Below, one piece after another: positions 9,180 to 15,662 of a DNA stretch of 23,773 nt. Source of the stretch: a virus. Location of the stretch: positions 1-23,773 of IMG/VR virus record IMGVR_UViG_3300028844_001719; one strand, given 5' to 3'. The position numbers and the translations under genes are program-made. Below the pieces are notes generated by a model. It had not been told where the DNA came from. It made no database searches and worked only from the letters and a program-made list of their open reading frames with translations. Numbering within the stretch: the first letter of the stretch is position 1; every line of letters begins with the position of its first letter.

Positions 9180-9338
9180 ATGAATGGCAAAGGAAGCAAG
9201 AGGCGATTGGAACAGATTTCCGATGCACAGATGCAGGAAAACTGGGACAAAATTTTCGGTAAAGCGGAGGACAAGAAAAACTATGATAGACGAAAAAATC
9301 CTATCAATTCTCGAAAGAGAACAAAATCGACAGACTGA
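9180..9338 (+). CDS. Small conserved basic protein (MNGKGSK family)
   Basis: 52 residues from ATG 9180. The start M-N-G-K-G-S-K-R-R followed by ENWDKIFGK is a pattern seen in small conserved proteins of marine T4-like phages. The tail after residue 32 is basic (KNYDRRKNP, SRKRTK). It begins 2 nt after the preceding gene and its last 56 nt overlap the start of the SHMT gene in another frame, whose Shine-Dalgarno (GCGGAGGA) lies within it. Function unknown. Confidence 0.65.
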   Translation: MNGKGSKRRLEQISDAQMQENWDKIFGKAEDKKNYDRRKNPINSRKRTKSTD

Positions 9339-10371
9339 TACTGTTGAACTTATCGCGAGTGAAAACTTCGCGAGCCAAGAGGTAATGGATTTGTGTGGAA
9401 GTGTCTTCACAAATAGAAGTGTCTTCACAAATAAGTACGCCGAAGGATATTCCGGTAAACGTTATTACAACGGATGCGATCATATGGACGAGATCGAGGA
9501 TCTAGCCATCGAAAGGGCAAAGTCTCTCTTTGGTTGTAAGTACGCAAATGTCCAACCACACTCGGGCGCCAACGCGAACACCGCCGTCTATCAAGCATTT
9601 CTGAAACCTGGCGATGTCCTTCTGGGTATGGATCTTGCTTCAGGTGGTCATCTATCACATGGAAGTCCGCCGAACATATCCGGTAAAATTTACCACTCAT
9701 ATTCCTATGGTGTGGATGATGAAGGTCTCTTGGACTATGATGCAATCGAGGAACAAGCCCTAGCAATAAAACCAAAAATGATTGTTGCGGGGGCGAGTGC
9801 CTATCCAAGACAAATTGACTTTTCGCGATTCTACGAAATCGCACAAAAGTGTGGAGCATATCTCCTTGCAGACATCGCACACTATTCTGGATTGATTGCA
9901 GGATCTGCTTATGAGAGTCCCTTTCCTTATGCAGATGTAGTCACTTCGACAACTCACAAGACTCTTCGAGGGCCACGAGGTGGAATCATTTTGTGGAACA
10001 AGAGAGAGTACAATCGGAGAATCAACAGTGCAATTTTTCCAGGCACTCAAGGTGGCCCACTGATGCATATCGTTGCGGCAAAGGCACAATGTTTTCACGA
10101 GGCGTTGCAACCCGAGTTTGAAACCTATGCGGTCAATGTCATTGAAAACGCAAAGGCGATGGGAAAGGTCTTTCGGAAACGAGGTATCAAAATTCAAACG
10201 AATGGAACAGATAGTCACATTCTTTTGTTGAATCTAACTAAGAGTAAGTACAGTGGGCGTGAAGCCGCTGATCTTCTTGAAGAGAATGGTATCACAGTCA
10301 ACAAGAATGGGATTCCAAACGATCCAAGATCATTCACCGAGACGAGCGGAATACGAATCGGCACTGCGTGA
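9283..10371 (+). CDS. glyA: Serine hydroxymethyltransferase, C-terminally truncated
   Basis: PLP enzyme converting serine and tetrahydrofolate to glycine and 5,10-methylene-THF, the one-carbon donor for dTMP synthesis. ATG 9283 is preferred over the in-frame 9184 because the family N-terminus (TVELIASENFAS) fits it and GGAGGA lies just upstream. Hallmarks present: KYAEGYSGKRYY, QPHSGANAN, the PLP-lysine motif TTHKTLRGPRGG and SGIRIGTA with the substrate-binding Arg. Two defects: a 6-residue tandem duplication (SVFTNRSVFTN) right before KYAEGY, and a stop immediately after SGIRIGTA. At 362 aa it lacks about 50 C-terminal residues (E. coli GlyA 417). Activity is doubtful; it may be a decaying gene or a minimal form. 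Confidence 0.85.
   Translation: MIDEKILSILEREQNRQTDTVELIASENFASQEVMDLCGSVFTNRSVFTNKYAEGYSGKRYYNGCDHMDEIEDLAIERAKSLFGCKYANVQPHSGANANTAVYQAFLKPGDVLLGMDLASGGHLSHGSPPNISGKIYHSYSYGVDDEGLLDYDAIEEQALAIKPKMIVAGASAYPRQIDFSRFYEIAQKCGAYLLADIAHYSGLIAGSAYESPFPYADVVTSTTHKTLRGPRGGIILWNKREYNRRINSAIFPGTQGGPLMHIVAAKAQCFHEALQPEFETYAVNVIENAKAMGKVFRKRGIKIQTNGTDSHILLLNLTKSKYSGREAADLLEENGITVNKNGIPNDPRSFTETSGIRIGTA
9398..9433 (+). repeat. Perfect 2 x 18-bp tandem duplication inside SHMT
   Basis: GAAGTGTCTTCACAAATA occurs twice in direct succession (9398-9415 and 9416-9433), in frame. It adds six residues next to the conserved active-site loop KYAEGY. Identity is 100%, so it is either recent or an assembly error. 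Confidence 0.95.
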
Positions 10372-10428: not shown

Positions 10429-11490
10429 ATGTTACCAAATAACAGAACAAAAAAAATACTAGGTAAAAACCTAGATCTATCTGAATTGTCGAATAAACTA
10501 CCTTTCGATGGTGAAGATATCACAAGTCTACCAGTCGAATATACACCCATTGGTTGGGACTGGTATGACTTGTCTACCTATGTGGAAGACGACAACAAAA
10601 CAATCAGATCTGAAGGCAATGCCGGGTCGAAGATTCAACTGAATCAGGAAGAATTAATGGCTGGTCTGGAAATGAATGGATGGGATACTAAATTCATTCC
10701 TCCTGTTATTAATGATTCTGGTGAGTTACAGGATGGAAGACAGAGGTGTAGATCAATGATCGCACTTGGTCAAAGCTTTGTGCCGGCACTAGTGGTCACT
10801 ATAAATGGAAATGCTCGAGCAGCTGCGTCTGTAATGAACATTCATCCTACGCATTCAAACCGGACTATGGAAGACCTTGTTGTCTCTATGCTTGCTGATT
10901 ATTATGACGGTCGTTACAAAGCGGACAGTGGAGAAATCGAAAAACTGTTGATTACAGAATATCAGATTTGGAAATCTTTCCGAAAAAATAGTGGAATATT
11001 AACAAAAGTAACAAATATTATTAAGCGTAGAATTGATGAAGATGACGCTAATATTAGGAGAAAGCCAAGAGATGAGTGGATACAATGGTTGAAAGATCAA
11101 GTGAATATTGATTTGAAAAAGGATAATATCCTTCTATATCGAGCTACCGCTCAAGCCAGTAAGGACTTTTTGATGGATCGCTTTCTCGATATTGGGAAAA
11201 GAGGTGGAAAACCCAAAATTATCTTATATGTAGATGTAGATGTAAAATCTAAAGCTCGAGCTCGAGTTGATGCTTTTATGGACGAAATCACATCATTCCA
11301 AAAAAACATTTTTGGATATGTTAGCACATCTGTTTTTACGGGTACGAACAAAAACACGAAATTAAGTCCCCCAAAAAACTCGGTTGATCTAGTTGGAATT
11401 ATTCCTCAGGCATCCACTAAACTTGAGAAAGAGTATTATGAGAGTGGAAAACTTCTCACACGAGAGGAGTTCAACTCGCTGGATCAGTAG
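10429..11490 (+). CDS. ParB/sulfiredoxin-fold-like protein
   Basis: 353 residues. The N-terminal region carries a ParB-like core: FIPPVINDSGELQDGRQRCR with DGRQR at 102-106, then ALGQSFVPALVV, matching the iDG.hR...a....G...vPv.v pattern of ParB-N/Srx domains (DNA binding, CTPase or kinase activities are known in this fold). The C-terminal 200 residues are helical and basic and not recognised. It is AT-rich with AAA-type codons unlike gp43 or gp41, and has no visible Shine-Dalgarno, only an A-rich run before ATG 10429. Seven bases separate it from the PP-loop ligase, so they probably act together. Confidence 0.65.
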   Translation: MLPNNRTKKILGKNLDLSELSNKLPFDGEDITSLPVEYTPIGWDWYDLSTYVEDDNKTIRSEGNAGSKIQLNQEELMAGLEMNGWDTKFIPPVINDSGELQDGRQRCRSMIALGQSFVPALVVTINGNARAAASVMNIHPTHSNRTMEDLVVSMLADYYDGRYKADSGEIEKLLITEYQIWKSFRKNSGILTKVTNIIKRRIDEDDANIRRKPRDEWIQWLKDQVNIDLKKDNILLYRATAQASKDFLMDRFLDIGKRGGKPKIILYVDVDVKSKARARVDAFMDEITSFQKNIFGYVSTSVFTGTNKNTKLSPPKNSVDLVGIIPQASTKLEKEYYESGKLLTREEFNSLDQ

Positions 11491-11497
11491 TTGATGC

Positions 11498-12319
11498 ATG
11501 ATCAGAAATCTTCTTACCGATCATATTAAGAATAACGCCCCCGATAATGAGATTGCGGTCTTGTTGTCGGGAGGCGTTGATTCTTTGTCTTGTGCAATCT
11601 CCGCCACAGATGCTGGTAAAACCGTAAACGCTTATTCCTTTCATCTTGACGGTAATGAGAGTTATGATTTTCACAAAGCCAAAGAGGTGTGTGAGATCAT
11701 GGATTGGAACTTTACTGGAGTTTCAGTTCCTCTGGATAATCTGGAAGAAGACTGGTTTCATTTGATGAATGAAATTGGATGTAAGAAAAAGACTCATTAC
11801 GAGTGTGTATGGCCATTTCTCTATGTTTACCCGAAGATCAAAGAAAAGTATGTTTTGACAGGCTGGGGTGCTGACGGTTATCACGGAGTCAGTAAAAAAG
11901 CAGTGATGCATTACAAGCACACTAAGGAAAAGTTTGATCAATTTCGAGATGAATATTTTCTACCAGAAAAGACGGCAGGGCTCAATTGGCACTTGACATT
12001 ATCAGAAAGGTATGATACTATTATGGTCAATCCTTTCTTAGATGAGAAAGTAAAAAAATATTTCTATCAATTCACATGGGACGAGTTAAACATTCCAAAA
12101 CAGAAACAACATATTCGAGATGATTTTCCGGAGCTAAATAGCTTTGGAAATGTCAAACCACATTTAAACTTACAACTTGCGTCTGGAGTAGATGACGTAT
12201 TTCTCACACTGCTTGATAACAAGAAAATCAATTTCAACAACCGAGAAAGAATTATGGACATCTGTAGAGACTGGAACATCAGAAACAACATAGTATCTTT
12301 AGAACAATTTTATGTATAA
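11498..12319 (+). CDS. Stand-alone asparagine-synthetase-like PP-loop ATPase
   Basis: 273 residues. PP-loop signature AVLLSGGVDSLSCAISA (SGGVDS at 24-29) for ATP adenylation, then YVLTGWGADGYHGVSKK (121-134), equivalent to the vL.GdGaDE.fgGY block of AsnB, and NPFLDEKVKKYFYQF with a later Lys-rich K-Q-K-Q-H-I-R segment. This is the synthetase half of asparagine synthetase; the N-terminal glutaminase domain is missing, so the amine donor is not glutamine hydrolysed in cis. Expected chemistry is adenylation of a carboxylate followed by amide formation. AT-rich like the ParB-like gene; overlaps the methyltransferase by 8 nt. A DNA-bound carboxymethyl substrate is proposed in the findings. Confidence 0.78.
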   Translation: MIRNLLTDHIKNNAPDNEIAVLLSGGVDSLSCAISATDAGKTVNAYSFHLDGNESYDFHKAKEVCEIMDWNFTGVSVPLDNLEEDWFHLMNEIGCKKKTHYECVWPFLYVYPKIKEKYVLTGWGADGYHGVSKKAVMHYKHTKEKFDQFRDEYFLPEKTAGLNWHLTLSERYDTIMVNPFLDEKVKKYFYQFTWDELNIPKQKQHIRDDFPELNSFGNVKPHLNLQLASGVDDVFLTLLDNKKINFNNRERIMDICRDWNIRNNIVSLEQFYV

Positions 12320-13463
12320 ACCATACAAGTTACAGGATGTAATTGAAGCATCAAATCAAAACAAATTCAAAGTAATATCTACCTTTGCTGGTGGAGGTGG
12401 TTCTTCGACTGGTTATCGACTTGCCGGAGGAAATGTTCTTTGCATCAACGAGTTCGTTGAAGAAGCTCAGAACACTTATGCACAGAACTATCCGAACACT
12501 CCTATCATTCCAGGCGACATCAAAGAACTGAAGGGTTCAGATTTTCTGGATCTCGTTGGTCTCAAGGAGGGTGAGTTGGATATTCTTGATGGGTCGCCTC
12601 CTTGCTCTGCTTTTTCTGTTGCCGGAAAACTTTCTCATTCGTCGGGCGGAAGTCATTCGGATGGATGGGGACAAACCAAGAACTATTCTGATGGTAAGAT
12701 CGTTGAGAACATCGAAGATCTTTTCTTTGAGTTTCTTCGTGTCGCAAAGAACATTCAACCAAAGGTGATTGTTGCGGAAAATGTCAAAGGGTTGACTATC
12801 GGAGAAGCCAAAGGATACATGAAGCGTATTCTCAAGACCTTTGAAGAGATCGGATATTCTCCTTCTTATGAGGTTCTGGATTCTCGATACTATGGTGTTT
12901 CTCAAACGAGGACTCGTGTTATCTTTATTGCGATTCGTAATGACGTGATGGATGAAGTCGGTTTGAACTTTATGACAATCGGTCATGTGTTTCCGGAGCC
13001 GAGCAAAGAAGTCATTCCTTTGAAAGATGCTCTGGTTGGTCTGGAATACGATAAAGAAGAGGTTCAATACTTGACAGACAAGTTCACAAAAACAGCCTAC
13101 TGGAAAGATACGGGATCTAAGATGGAGACCTTTCCAAAGAAGGTTTTGACTGGAGGAGACTACCATCCGAAAGGTCATCACTTCAATCTCAAGAGAGTTT
13201 CTCTGGAAGTTCCTGCTCCAACCTTGACTGCTATGGGAAGTGGTGACACGACTGCCGGTGCATTTCATTGGAGTGAAAAAAGAAAGTTGACATTAGGCGA
13301 ATTAAAGCGTATTATGTCTTTGCCTGATGATTTTAAACTAACTGGAAAATGGAATCAACGTGCCGAACGCTGTGGCCGCATGGTTCCTCCTCTAATGATG
13401 AAAAAGATTGCAGAAGCAGTCTACGAAAATGTTCTAAAAATATACAATGAAAAACACACCTGA
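12312..13463 (+). CDS. C5-cytosine DNA methyltransferase, predicted carboxymethyltransferase
   Basis: 383 residues. C5-MTase motifs in order: I FAGGGGSSTGYRLAGG (25-40), II with ribose-binding E47 (CINEF), IV GSPPCSAFS (catalytic C98), VI AENV (155-158), VIII QTRTR (198-202), a target-recognition region around 250-315, IX-like RIMSLPDDF, and X RCGRMVPPLM. In motif X the near-invariant Asn of GNxVPP is Arg (R356). This residue borders the methyl donor; its Lys substitution in M.MpeI allows carboxy-SAM use. The gene overlaps the PP-loop ligase (8 nt) upstream and the CmoA homologue (17 nt) downstream. It is solidly a C5-MTase; donor choice is inference. After the first ~80 nt its codon use matches the phage core. 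Confidence 0.92.
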   Translation: MYKPYKLQDVIEASNQNKFKVISTFAGGGGSSTGYRLAGGNVLCINEFVEEAQNTYAQNYPNTPIIPGDIKELKGSDFLDLVGLKEGELDILDGSPPCSAFSVAGKLSHSSGGSHSDGWGQTKNYSDGKIVENIEDLFFEFLRVAKNIQPKVIVAENVKGLTIGEAKGYMKRILKTFEEIGYSPSYEVLDSRYYGVSQTRTRVIFIAIRNDVMDEVGLNFMTIGHVFPEPSKEVIPLKDALVGLEYDKEEVQYLTDKFTKTAYWKDTGSKMETFPKKVLTGGDYHPKGHHFNLKRVSLEVPAPTLTAMGSGDTTAGAFHWSEKRKLTLGELKRIMSLPDDFKLTGKWNQRAERCGRMVPPLMMKKIAEAVYENVLKIYNEKHT

Positions 13464-14166
13464 TTTTACCTTTGCCCATCGAGAAGAGGGGTTTGACAAT
13501 CACATCGAGGATTCGATTCGAGGTTACTCTAACCTCCACGACGATGTAGTGAATCTCTCTCAATACTTTGTTGAGAATGATTCGGACAAAATGGTTCTGG
13601 ACATTGGTTGTTCGACCGGAAAAACCATCATGGCTATGATGGAACAGAATCGCTCATTTGCTCCTAAGACTCTTTATGTTGGAGTTGAGTATGCAAGTGG
13701 GTTTCGCGATGGTTTGTGGAATCGAGAAGAAGAGATCAAACAAAAGGAGCTGGGTCGGGCAAAGTTTCACGTCGAGGACATTCGAAACTTCAAGTTCAAG
13801 TCATCCAGTTATTCTTTGATTACATCTCTCTTCACTCTACAGTTTATGCCTCCATCCGAACGGCAGGGAATCTTGAAAAAGATCTATGACAGTCTTGTGT
13901 CGGGTGGTGCGTTTATCTTTTCAGAAAAAACTATTTCTTCCGATTCAAGGATTCAAGACATGATCACCTTTACTTTCTACGATCACAAGAGGAAGACATT
14001 TGATGATAAGGATATCCTTGATAAGGAAAGGACTCTGCGACATATGTTGAAGCCTAACACTTGGCAAGAGTTGGTTTCTATGTTGGAGACTGCGGGATTC
14101 GATTCAAGGAAGATTCAACCCTTCTGGCAAAACCATCTCTTCATGGGAGCAATTGCAATGAAATGA
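13447..14166 (+). CDS. cmoA: CmoA-like carboxy-SAM synthase
   Basis: 239-residue SAM-binding protein with the CmoA layout: S-I-R-G-Y-S-N-L (CmoA SVPGYSN), SAM motif VLDIGCSTGKT, then SLFTLQFMPPSERQGILKKI and GGAFIFSEK followed by YDHKRK and the helix ILDKERTLRHML, where R195 is the likely equivalent of E. coli CmoA R199, which binds the Cx-SAM carboxylate. CmoA (247 aa) makes carboxy-S-adenosyl-methionine from SAM and prephenate. In bacteria this feeds CmoB for tRNA cmo5U, but no CmoB is here. Overlap with the C5-MTase points to supplying Cx-SAM to it. The stop overlaps dCMP deaminase as ATGA. Confidence 0.86.
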   Translation: MKNTPDFTFAHREEGFDNHIEDSIRGYSNLHDDVVNLSQYFVENDSDKMVLDIGCSTGKTIMAMMEQNRSFAPKTLYVGVEYASGFRDGLWNREEEIKQKELGRAKFHVEDIRNFKFKSSSYSLITSLFTLQFMPPSERQGILKKIYDSLVSGGAFIFSEKTISSDSRIQDMITFTFYDHKRKTFDDKDILDKERTLRHMLKPNTWQELVSMLETAGFDSRKIQPFWQNHLFMGAIAMK

Positions 14167-14606
14167 ACGATCAGTGGAAAAACAGATATTATGATCTTGC
14201 TGGTGAAGTTGCCACTTGGAGTAAAGATCCATCGAAAAAGGTAGGTGCGATAATCGTAGGAAAACATGGTCAAGTTCTCTCACAGGGATACAATGGATTT
14301 CCAAGAGGTATGGACGACGATCCGAAATACTACGATGATCGAGAAAGAAAGTATGAAAGGATTGTTCATGCGGAAGCGAATGCGATCTACAACGCAACAC
14401 GCAACGGAGTTTGTTTGGATGGGTCTACGATGTTTGTCTACGGTCTTCCAATTTGTCACGAATGTGCAAAGGCTGTTATTCAGGTAGGAATTTCTGAAGT
14501 GGTGATGAAGTGGGAGAAGATTCCGTATAAGTGGCAAAAAAGCTGTCATTTGGCGGAAAAATTCTTTGACGAATCAAAAGTTAAACGCACTTACCTAGCC
14601 CCCTAA
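14163..14606 (+). CDS. cd: dCMP deaminase
   Basis: 147 residues from ATG 14163, which overlaps the preceding stop as ATGA; the frame is open further upstream but those codons lie inside the CmoA gene. Zinc and catalytic motifs: IVHAEANAI (HAE) and PICHECAKAV (PC..C). An N-terminal S-K-D-P-S-K-K-V-G-A-I-I-V strand and SQGYNGFPRG loop are typical of deoxycytidylate deaminases. It converts dCMP to dUMP for dTTP synthesis. It ends just before a weak hairpin with a T run. Confidence 0.94.
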   Translation: MNDQWKNRYYDLAGEVATWSKDPSKKVGAIIVGKHGQVLSQGYNGFPRGMDDDPKYYDDRERKYERIVHAEANAIYNATRNGVCLDGSTMFVYGLPICHECAKAVIQVGISEVVMKWEKIPYKWQKSCHLAEKFFDESKVKRTYLAP

Positions 14607-14628
14607 GTGTTCGCCTTTTTTTTTCTTT
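14587..14628 (+). terminator. Possible weak terminator after dCMP deaminase
   Basis: CACTTA (14588-14593) pairs with TAAGTG (14604-14609), with a 10-nt loop, followed after a few bases by TTTTTTTTTCTTT. The stem is short and overlaps the end of the coding sequence, so it would be inefficient. Confidence 0.35.
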
Positions 14629-14654
14629 ACAAACACCTAAAAATGTGGTATCCT
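14626..14654 (+). promoter_or_regulatory. Sigma70-like promoter of uvsX
   Basis: TTTACA (14626-14631), 17-bp spacer, TATCCT (14649-14654); predicted +1 near 14661, giving a 13-nt leader to ATG 14674. It lacks the CTTTTACA twin box seen at four other promoters. Confidence 0.5.
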
Positions 14655-14673
14655 ATACAGGTTAAATAAAATT

Positions 14674-15662
14674 ATGTCATTACTAAGTAAACTCAAAAAG
14701 TCTTCTCGGATTAGTGCATCAGATATTCTGTCTGATTCTAAGTTTTTTGCCGAGAAGGAACAAACACCAACTTCGGTGCCAATGATCAATGTGGCACTCC
14801 GTCAAAACACTTCAAGACATCCTTTGCCCTTCTGATGGCATCGTCGTATCTTGATCGACACGAGGATGCGGTTCTTCTCTTCTATGATTCGGAGTTTGGA
14901 TCGCCGCAGTCTTACTTCAAATCCTTTGGTATTGACACAAGTCGAGTTCTTCACAGTCCGGTAACGAACATCGAAGAGTTAAAGTTCGATCTGGTCAATC
15001 AACTCAATGAGATCGAAAGAACTGATAAGGTTATTGTTGTGATTGATTCGGTTGGTAATATCGCATCTAAGAAGGAACTTGATGACGCTATGAATGAGAA
15101 GTCTGTTGCGGATATGACAAGAGCAAAGGCTCTGAAGGGTCTCTTCCGCATGATCACTCCTCAGTTGACGATGAAGGACATTCCTCTTCTTGCGGTCAAT
15201 CACACGTATATGGAACAGGGAATGTTTCCAAAGGCGATTGTCTCGGGTGGAACGGGTGTTATGTATTCCGCCGACAATGTGTGGATCATCGGTCGTCAAC
15301 AGGATAAGAAGGGAACAGAGATTCAGGGATATCACTTTATCATCAACGTTGAGAAGTCTCGATTTGTTCGAGAGAAGTCAAAGATTCCGATCTCAGTCTC
15401 GTGGGATGGTGGTATTCAAAAGTGGTCTGGTCTTTTGGATGTGGCGCTTGAATCCGGTCACGTTCGTAAACCAAAGAACGGCTGGTATCAGGCAATGAAT
15501 CCTGAAACGGGCGAAGAACTTTCTCAGAATCTTCGAGAAGCTCAAACCATGAATCGCCTATTCTGGGAAAAGGTTTTTGAGAAGACCGACTTTGAATCTT
15601 ACATCGAAAAGCGTTTCAAGGTTGCAAGCAAGGATATGATACAGGAGCAAATCGAAGAATGA
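14674..15662 (+). pseudogene. uvsX: Recombinase UvsX (RecA-like) with internal deletion and frameshift
   Basis: Strand-exchange ATPase of T4-like phages for recombination-dependent replication. The first frame (ATG 14674) encodes the proper N-terminus (SLLSKLKKSSRISASDIL, VPMINVAL) but then shifts and stops at TGA 14833-14835. The rest of UvsX continues in another frame from about 14793: Walker A G-T-P-S-K-H-F-K-T, SFALLMASSYL, LLFYDSEFG, Walker B VIVVIDS, NHTYMEQ, NVEKSRFVREKSK, to TGA at 15662. Compared with T4 UvsX, the segment between NVAL and the P-loop (about 17 residues) is missing, consistent with a ~52-nt deletion. ATG 14835 can restart translation but omits Walker A. Either a real lesion or an assembly error. 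Confidence 0.85.

Follow-up and report, generated by a model that had tools for sequence, protein, structure and literature searches.

A cassette at positions 10429-14166 of IMG/VR record IMGVR_UViG_3300028844_001719, a 23,773-nt stretch of DNA (hereafter the window) from an uncultured marine T4-like phage, is with good confidence predicted to encode a CmoA-CmoX-CmoY hypermodification system giving 5-glycylcarboxymethylcytosine, in an exchangeable slot between the serine hydroxymethyltransferase (SHMT) gene and uvsX. The pathway was demonstrated in Synechococcus phage S-B43 (MN018232) by Yang et al. (Nat Commun, Dec 2025; PMC12783734): CmoA makes carboxy-S-adenosylmethionine (Cx-SAM), CmoX makes 5-carboxymethylcytosine (5cxmC) at GC using Arg350, CmoY ligates glycine, and the virion DNA contains 5-glycylcarboxymethyl-dC. 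A previous sequence-only reading of the window had proposed a route from Cx-SAM through 5cxmC to an amide as a natural phage pathway. This route is borne out, biochemically and in virion DNA, by the S-B43 homologues, and the natural pathway does exist, but it is already published and so not new (PMC12783734). The core chemistry is known; what is new is the variation among close relatives, in which this position is occupied by another DNA-modification cassette or by none.

Each enzymatic step has been demonstrated with the S-B43 homologues, and we infer the same steps in the window, with high confidence, from sequence identity (63, 52 and 48% for CmoX, CmoA and CmoY, respectively), conserved residues and gene order. 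CmoA would produce Cx-SAM from S-adenosylmethionine (SAM) and host prephenate, and CmoX would act after replication, transferring the carboxymethyl group to cytosine C5, probably at GC. CmoY would then adenylate the carboxylate and join an amino acid to it, most likely glycine, yielding 5-glycylcarboxymethylcytosine, a modified base that would shield phage DNA from host restriction.

Evidence for the three predicted enzymes

Window CmoX belongs to the cytosine C5-methyltransferase family PF00145, and its best PDB match is 8YF3 (E 5e-152). As the sequence-only reading had pointed out, its motif X (CGRMVPP) carries Arg rather than Asn; this residue, R356, aligns with Arg350 of S-B43 CmoX. The catalytic SPPC motif is formed by S95-P96-P97-C98, the Cx-SAM pocket residues F25, E47, F48 and D69 are identical and identically numbered in SpCmoX, and every cofactor or catalytic residue named for SpCmoX (PMC12783734) has been kept. 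Of 85 aligned proteins, 84 have the motif X Arg; the remaining one has Leu and comes from a phage without a detected CmoA. A neighbourhood search, suggested alongside the sequence-only reading, was run on 80 IMG/VR contigs carrying a relative of the window methyltransferase, and CmoA was found on the same strand beside these relatives in 79 (≤30 nt apart in 73), the sole contig without it stopping at its edge. The association of CmoX and CmoA is not due to chance. CmoY was present in 34 of these contigs and a relative of the ParB-like protein encoded at the start of the window cassette in 15. Membership of PF00145 would also suit an ordinary SAM-using 5-methylcytosine methylase, with CmoA serving tRNA modification; however, the replacement of Asn by Arg in motif X, the 63% identity to an enzyme restricted to Cx-SAM, the conserved CmoX-CmoA pair and the lack of CmoB in S-B43 (PMC12783734) render this explanation extremely unlikely.

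Exceptions show the motif X Arg to be a strong, but not absolute, indicator of a phage CmoA, and its use as a strict one was rejected. Moraxella phage Mcat8 (L086 2971-4041; L-numbers label the compared loci) encodes a C5-methyltransferase with motif X Arg that is 43% identical to window CmoX, and no CmoA was detected in this phage; as a guess, its enzyme might draw on host Cx-SAM. Staphylococcus phage vB-SscS-F1 (L096 4774-5781) has a CmoA-CmoY-like-methyltransferase cluster in which no motif X Arg could be aligned in the methyltransferase; this enzyme may bind Cx-SAM in an alternative way. Separately, the CmoX homologue of Erwinia phage pEa_SNUABM_28 (L093 1642-3771) is split exactly at its catalytic SPPC motif by a long insertion, probably an intein.

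The second enzyme was correctly recognized as a CmoA homologue by the sequence-only reading, as it matches a PHROGs tRNA methyltransferase family (Table 1) and E. coli CmoA (4GEK, E 2e-18 in a PDB sequence search), and is 52% identical to S-B43 CmoA, which has been shown to make Cx-SAM. Conserved SAM-site residues Y27, D52, G54, S56, D111 and E160 correspond to Tyr39, Asp62, Gly64, Ser66, Asp117 and Glu164 of the E. coli enzyme.

Window CmoY is 48% identical to SpCmoY, which has in common with it 55 of the 64 positions invariant among 22 window-CmoY relatives; positions common to both proteins include K98, H100, E102, R150, R207, R249 and R251. An AlphaFold 2 (AF2) model of CmoY (pLDDT 87), generated from window and IMG/VR sequences, aligned over 252 residues to residues 233-527 of human ASNS (Z 22.2, root mean square deviation (rmsd) 2.8), i.e., to the synthetase domain only, and the N-terminal glutaminase domain with Cys2 is absent from the window protein. 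The amide-forming, asparagine-synthetase-like ligase of the sequence-only reading is thus upheld by the PF00733 match, the fold of the ASNS C-terminal domain and homology to SpCmoY, but the amine is likely glycine, and a simple ammonia amide is not what we expect. The kinship with SpCmoY and the missing glutaminase domain both favor glycine over ammonia: glycine appears most likely, another amino acid possible and ammonia unlikely.

By analogy with asparagine, the ligase might instead form a simple amide (5-carbamoylmethylcytosine) from ammonia, as the asparagine-synthetase fold of CmoY would allow. At the same place, L012 encodes a true glutamine-dependent AsnB (474 aa, MCGIIGG..., GATase_6/7 glutaminase domain) and L013 holds the end of one, and these proteins are predicted to give the simple amide. 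In contrast, the 273-aa window CmoY aligns only from ASNS residue 233 onward, carries TGWGAD in place of the AsnB-like SGEGAD of L012, and has as its closest characterized homologue the glycine-using SpCmoY. Ammonia as the amine in the window is accordingly very unlikely.

Some observations count against the cassette reading. E. coli CmoA Arg199 forms a salt bridge with the Cx-SAM carboxylate (PMC3663124), and the window protein has Glu (E194) at this position, with R198 one helical turn on. S-B43 CmoA, an active enzyme, likewise has Glu there, so Arg199 is not defining for the phage CmoA branch. Nearly all of this branch has Glu at the Arg199 position and most members have Arg or Lys at +4, while the PaBG and Erwinia phage proteins retain Arg199 and have Glu at +4; our guess is that the carboxylate-binding Arg has moved by one helical turn in phage CmoA. 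In CmoY, 9 of the 64 family-invariant positions differ in SpCmoY (e.g., W123 to I, next to the partner motif of the PP-loop), which, at 48% identity, would fit the same pathway with CmoY attaching a different α-amino acid or small amine, such that the final base is not 5-glycylcarboxymethylcytosine. Since most invariant positions, including the seven named above, are common to SpCmoY, we consider this unlikely. Lastly, the contig may hold assembly errors in uvsX and SHMT. The cassette itself could be broken or chimeric, by assembly artefact or gene decay, given the ~52-bp uvsX deletion at 14798, an 18-bp in-frame duplication in SHMT and the loss of the SHMT C-terminus where the ParB-like gene adjoins it, a junction for which no second, spanning contig was found. 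However, all four cassette open reading frames (ORFs) are intact and co-directional, and an independent contig (L006) carries ParB 3' end-CmoY-CmoX-CmoA-dCMP deaminase at 97-99% nucleotide identity to the window, making a defective cassette improbable.

The exchange slot and GpC depletion

The SHMT-to-uvsX interval is a swap slot for DNA-modification modules, with dCMP deaminase as its right border in the window lineage. Homology of the window to L007, L008, L009 and L011 stops at 10367 and restarts at 12312, and in these four relatives CmoX directly follows SHMT. Across relatives the slot was found to contain Cmo genes without a ligase, with CmoY only (L010, which has no ParB-like gene), with ParB and CmoY, or with AsnB; a Dam-type methylase in place of the Cmo module (L116/L261); no module, as in L098, where dCMP deaminase comes immediately after SHMT and is itself followed by a gene with a DruA domain; or a T4-type 5-hydroxymethylcytosine (hmC)/glucosylation set. 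Where both sides were compared, the flanks are 86-97% identical in nucleotide sequence, those of L181 being less alike (86% in SHMT, 77% in uvsX). The L181 slot holds a dCMP hydroxymethylase (PDB 1b49, E 2e-85), a MazG-like protein, dCMP deaminase, a DNA α-glucosyltransferase (PF11440, E 7e-84; PDB 1y6f, E 3e-95) and another C5-methyltransferase homologue. In a wider group anchored on uvsX (UvsX about 75-81% identical), over 20 contigs carry the hydroxymethylation set, and CmoX was absent from the regions seen. No Asn_synthase was found elsewhere in the L008 and L009 records (fragments of 30 and 44 kb), for which "bare" 5cxmC is predicted.

Two further observations concern genes at this slot. 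Immediately upstream of uvsX, L181 (3386-4579) and many hmC-type loci encode a divergent C5-cytosine methylase homologue (MT2, with a VCPCAG motif), and a DruA-domain (PF14236) gene adjoins the empty slot in L098 (2984-4111) and L264.

The window is also depleted in GpC, with an odds ratio (ρ) of 0.66, and members of its lineage with Cmo genes range from 0.66 to 0.76. Conversely, ρ was 0.96 and 0.92 for the hmC-type loci L181 and L265, and 0.96-1.28 in the wider hmC group. Median values were 0.80 for 59 CmoX-bearing loci and 1.12 for 129 other loci (uncorrected for kinship), and GC was the best separator of the two sets among ten dinucleotides (area under the curve 0.09). Synonymous choice in NGY codons of the window agrees with the deficit, as C was used 22% of the time after G compared to 41% after A. 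The deficit would fit, as indirect evidence, the GC target of S-B43 CmoX, although kinship is uncorrected and the pattern is not universal: tending the other way, the CmoX phages L059, L069 and L081 are not depleted (0.96-0.99), GpC is low in Sf-CH5 (0.71), where no CmoX was found, and it is also low in L098, L261 and L264 without Cmo genes at the slot, owing to recent loss or another cause. The data did not favor loss of GpC by deamination, since no excess of GpT/ApC was seen (the window has an AC ρ of 0.92, and the median is 0.98 for either group of loci); avoidance is the better fit.

The simplest reading of these contig fragments is that an hmC module was replaced by a carboxymethylation module at an orthologous locus, with ligases exchanged secondarily. 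We lean slightly toward the full form of this scenario, in which a swap slot upstream of uvsX would have passed from the hmC module widespread in outer relatives to a carboxymethylcytosine module, its ligase being exchanged in turn between phages with flanks 86-98% identical, and the GpC deficit across the genome would be a trace of GC-directed modification. With the window, a published system gains a well-supported member in an uncultured phage group; together with its relatives, the window offers a natural comparative series with near-identical flanks (predicted bare 5cxmC, glycyl amide, simple amide, N6-adenine methylation, glucosyl-hmC and none). This series makes it possible to test whether modification-dependent and ordinary restriction by the hosts is what drives phages to exchange their DNA chemistry, and to find which amide is formed by each ligase. 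The GpC deficit is an inexpensive way to screen sequences for CmoX-type targeting.

Cassette layout and neighboring genes

The sequence-only reading described four tightly packed genes, all of which were recovered at the expected positions on the + strand (Table 1). Intergenic spacings are +7, -8 and -17 nt for ParB-CmoY, CmoY-CmoX and CmoX-CmoA, respectively, and the dCMP deaminase gene overlaps the end of CmoA by 4 nt, such that the transcription unit extends past the cassette.

Table 1 Features of the cassette and its immediate surroundings in the window.
Feature	Position	Strand	Evidence or remark
SHMT, C-terminally truncated	9184-10371	+	PF00464, E 2e-142; left slot border
ParB-fold-like protein, 353 aa	10429-11490	+	ORF; motif DGRQR at residues 102-106
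CmoY, ATP-dependent amide ligase (predicted), 273 aa	11498-12319	+	Asn_synthase PF00733, E 1e-8; PP-loop SGGVDS
CmoX, DNA cytosine C5-carboxymethyltransferase (predicted), 383 aa	12312-13463	+	PF00145, E 2e-56
CmoA, carboxy-SAM synthase (predicted), 239 aa	13447-14166	+	phrog_4752 "tRNA methyltransferase", E 6e-58
dCMP deaminase	14163-14606	+	PF00383, E 8.5e-20; constant flank in relatives
uvsX	14619-15662		~52-bp deletion at 14798/14799 relative to relatives

The label "ParB-like" given to the first cassette gene by the sequence-only reading holds only as a hint at the level of fold. The protein had no match in Pfam, PHROGs or a PDB sequence search, and PF02195 remained empty even at E 10. 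Residues G103, R104 and R106 of the DGRQR motif are invariant in 11 distant homologues. An AF2 model, produced as for CmoY and of low confidence (pLDDT 65), gave ParB/Noc/PadC proteins as all top 12 Foldseek matches (E at least 0.026) and aligned to pNOB8 ParB-N over 154 residues (VIA-align Z 7.0, rmsd 4.0). Together, the low-confidence model and the invariant G-R-x-R hint at a divergent ParB fold. ParBc-domain genes are frequent CmoX neighbors with unknown function (PMC12783734).

The uvsX deletion breaks the reading frame and is either a genuine mutation or an assembly error. In SHMT, the duplication reads VFTNRSVFTN and the protein ends SGIRIGTA at its stop, short by ~24 residues, whereas the SHMT of relatives runs on past this end (...AAETTRHGGDTEWFENLANKISDILC). 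The SHMT reaction yields glycine and methylene-tetrahydrofolate (CH2-THF). The gene precedes dCMP hydroxymethylase, which needs CH2-THF, in L181 and CmoY, which would use glycine, in L010. Intact SHMT is a possible glycine supplier in relatives, but in the window its truncation at the ParB junction makes such supply doubtful. SHMT as a general Cmo partner was rejected, as 75 of 79 SHMT loci have no Cmo genes and only 6 of 80 CmoX loci have SHMT.

Comparison with known systems

The closest known system is that of S-B43 (PDB 8YF3), also a T4-like marine phage, which shares the three enzymes, their key residues and a compact co-directional cluster with the window. The two differ in gene order (CmoA-CmoY-CmoX in S-B43, ParB-CmoY-CmoX-CmoA in the window), in sequence (48-63% identity) and in the adjacent SHMT and linked dCMP deaminase of the window. 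The published catalogue from IMG/VR and other sources comprises 5,615 candidate CmoX proteins (PMC12783734).

More distant likenesses exist for the individual steps. In M.MpeI N374K, substitution of the motif X Asn by a basic residue likewise lets a C5-methyltransferase use Cx-SAM, but this enzyme is engineered and CG-specific, whereas the window cassette is natural and includes a phage CmoA and a ligase. TRNA wobble modification by E. coli CmoA/CmoB also depends on a CmoA homologue as Cx-SAM synthase; the window differs in that no CmoB was seen in it, the predicted target is DNA and Arg199 is replaced by Glu. With asparagine synthetase B and β-lactam synthetase, CmoY shares the fold of adenylating PP-loop amide ligases (Z about 22), but it lacks an N-terminal glutaminase domain and its acceptor carboxylate would be on a DNA base. 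Finally, the hydroxymethylcytosine/α-glucosyl pathway of T4 (gp42, AGT) follows the same logic of installing a handle at cytosine C5 and then hypermodifying it, and a T4-type set occupies the orthologous slot in relatives such as L181, L271 and L291; the handle differs, as hmC is made at the nucleotide level and 5cxmC on DNA.

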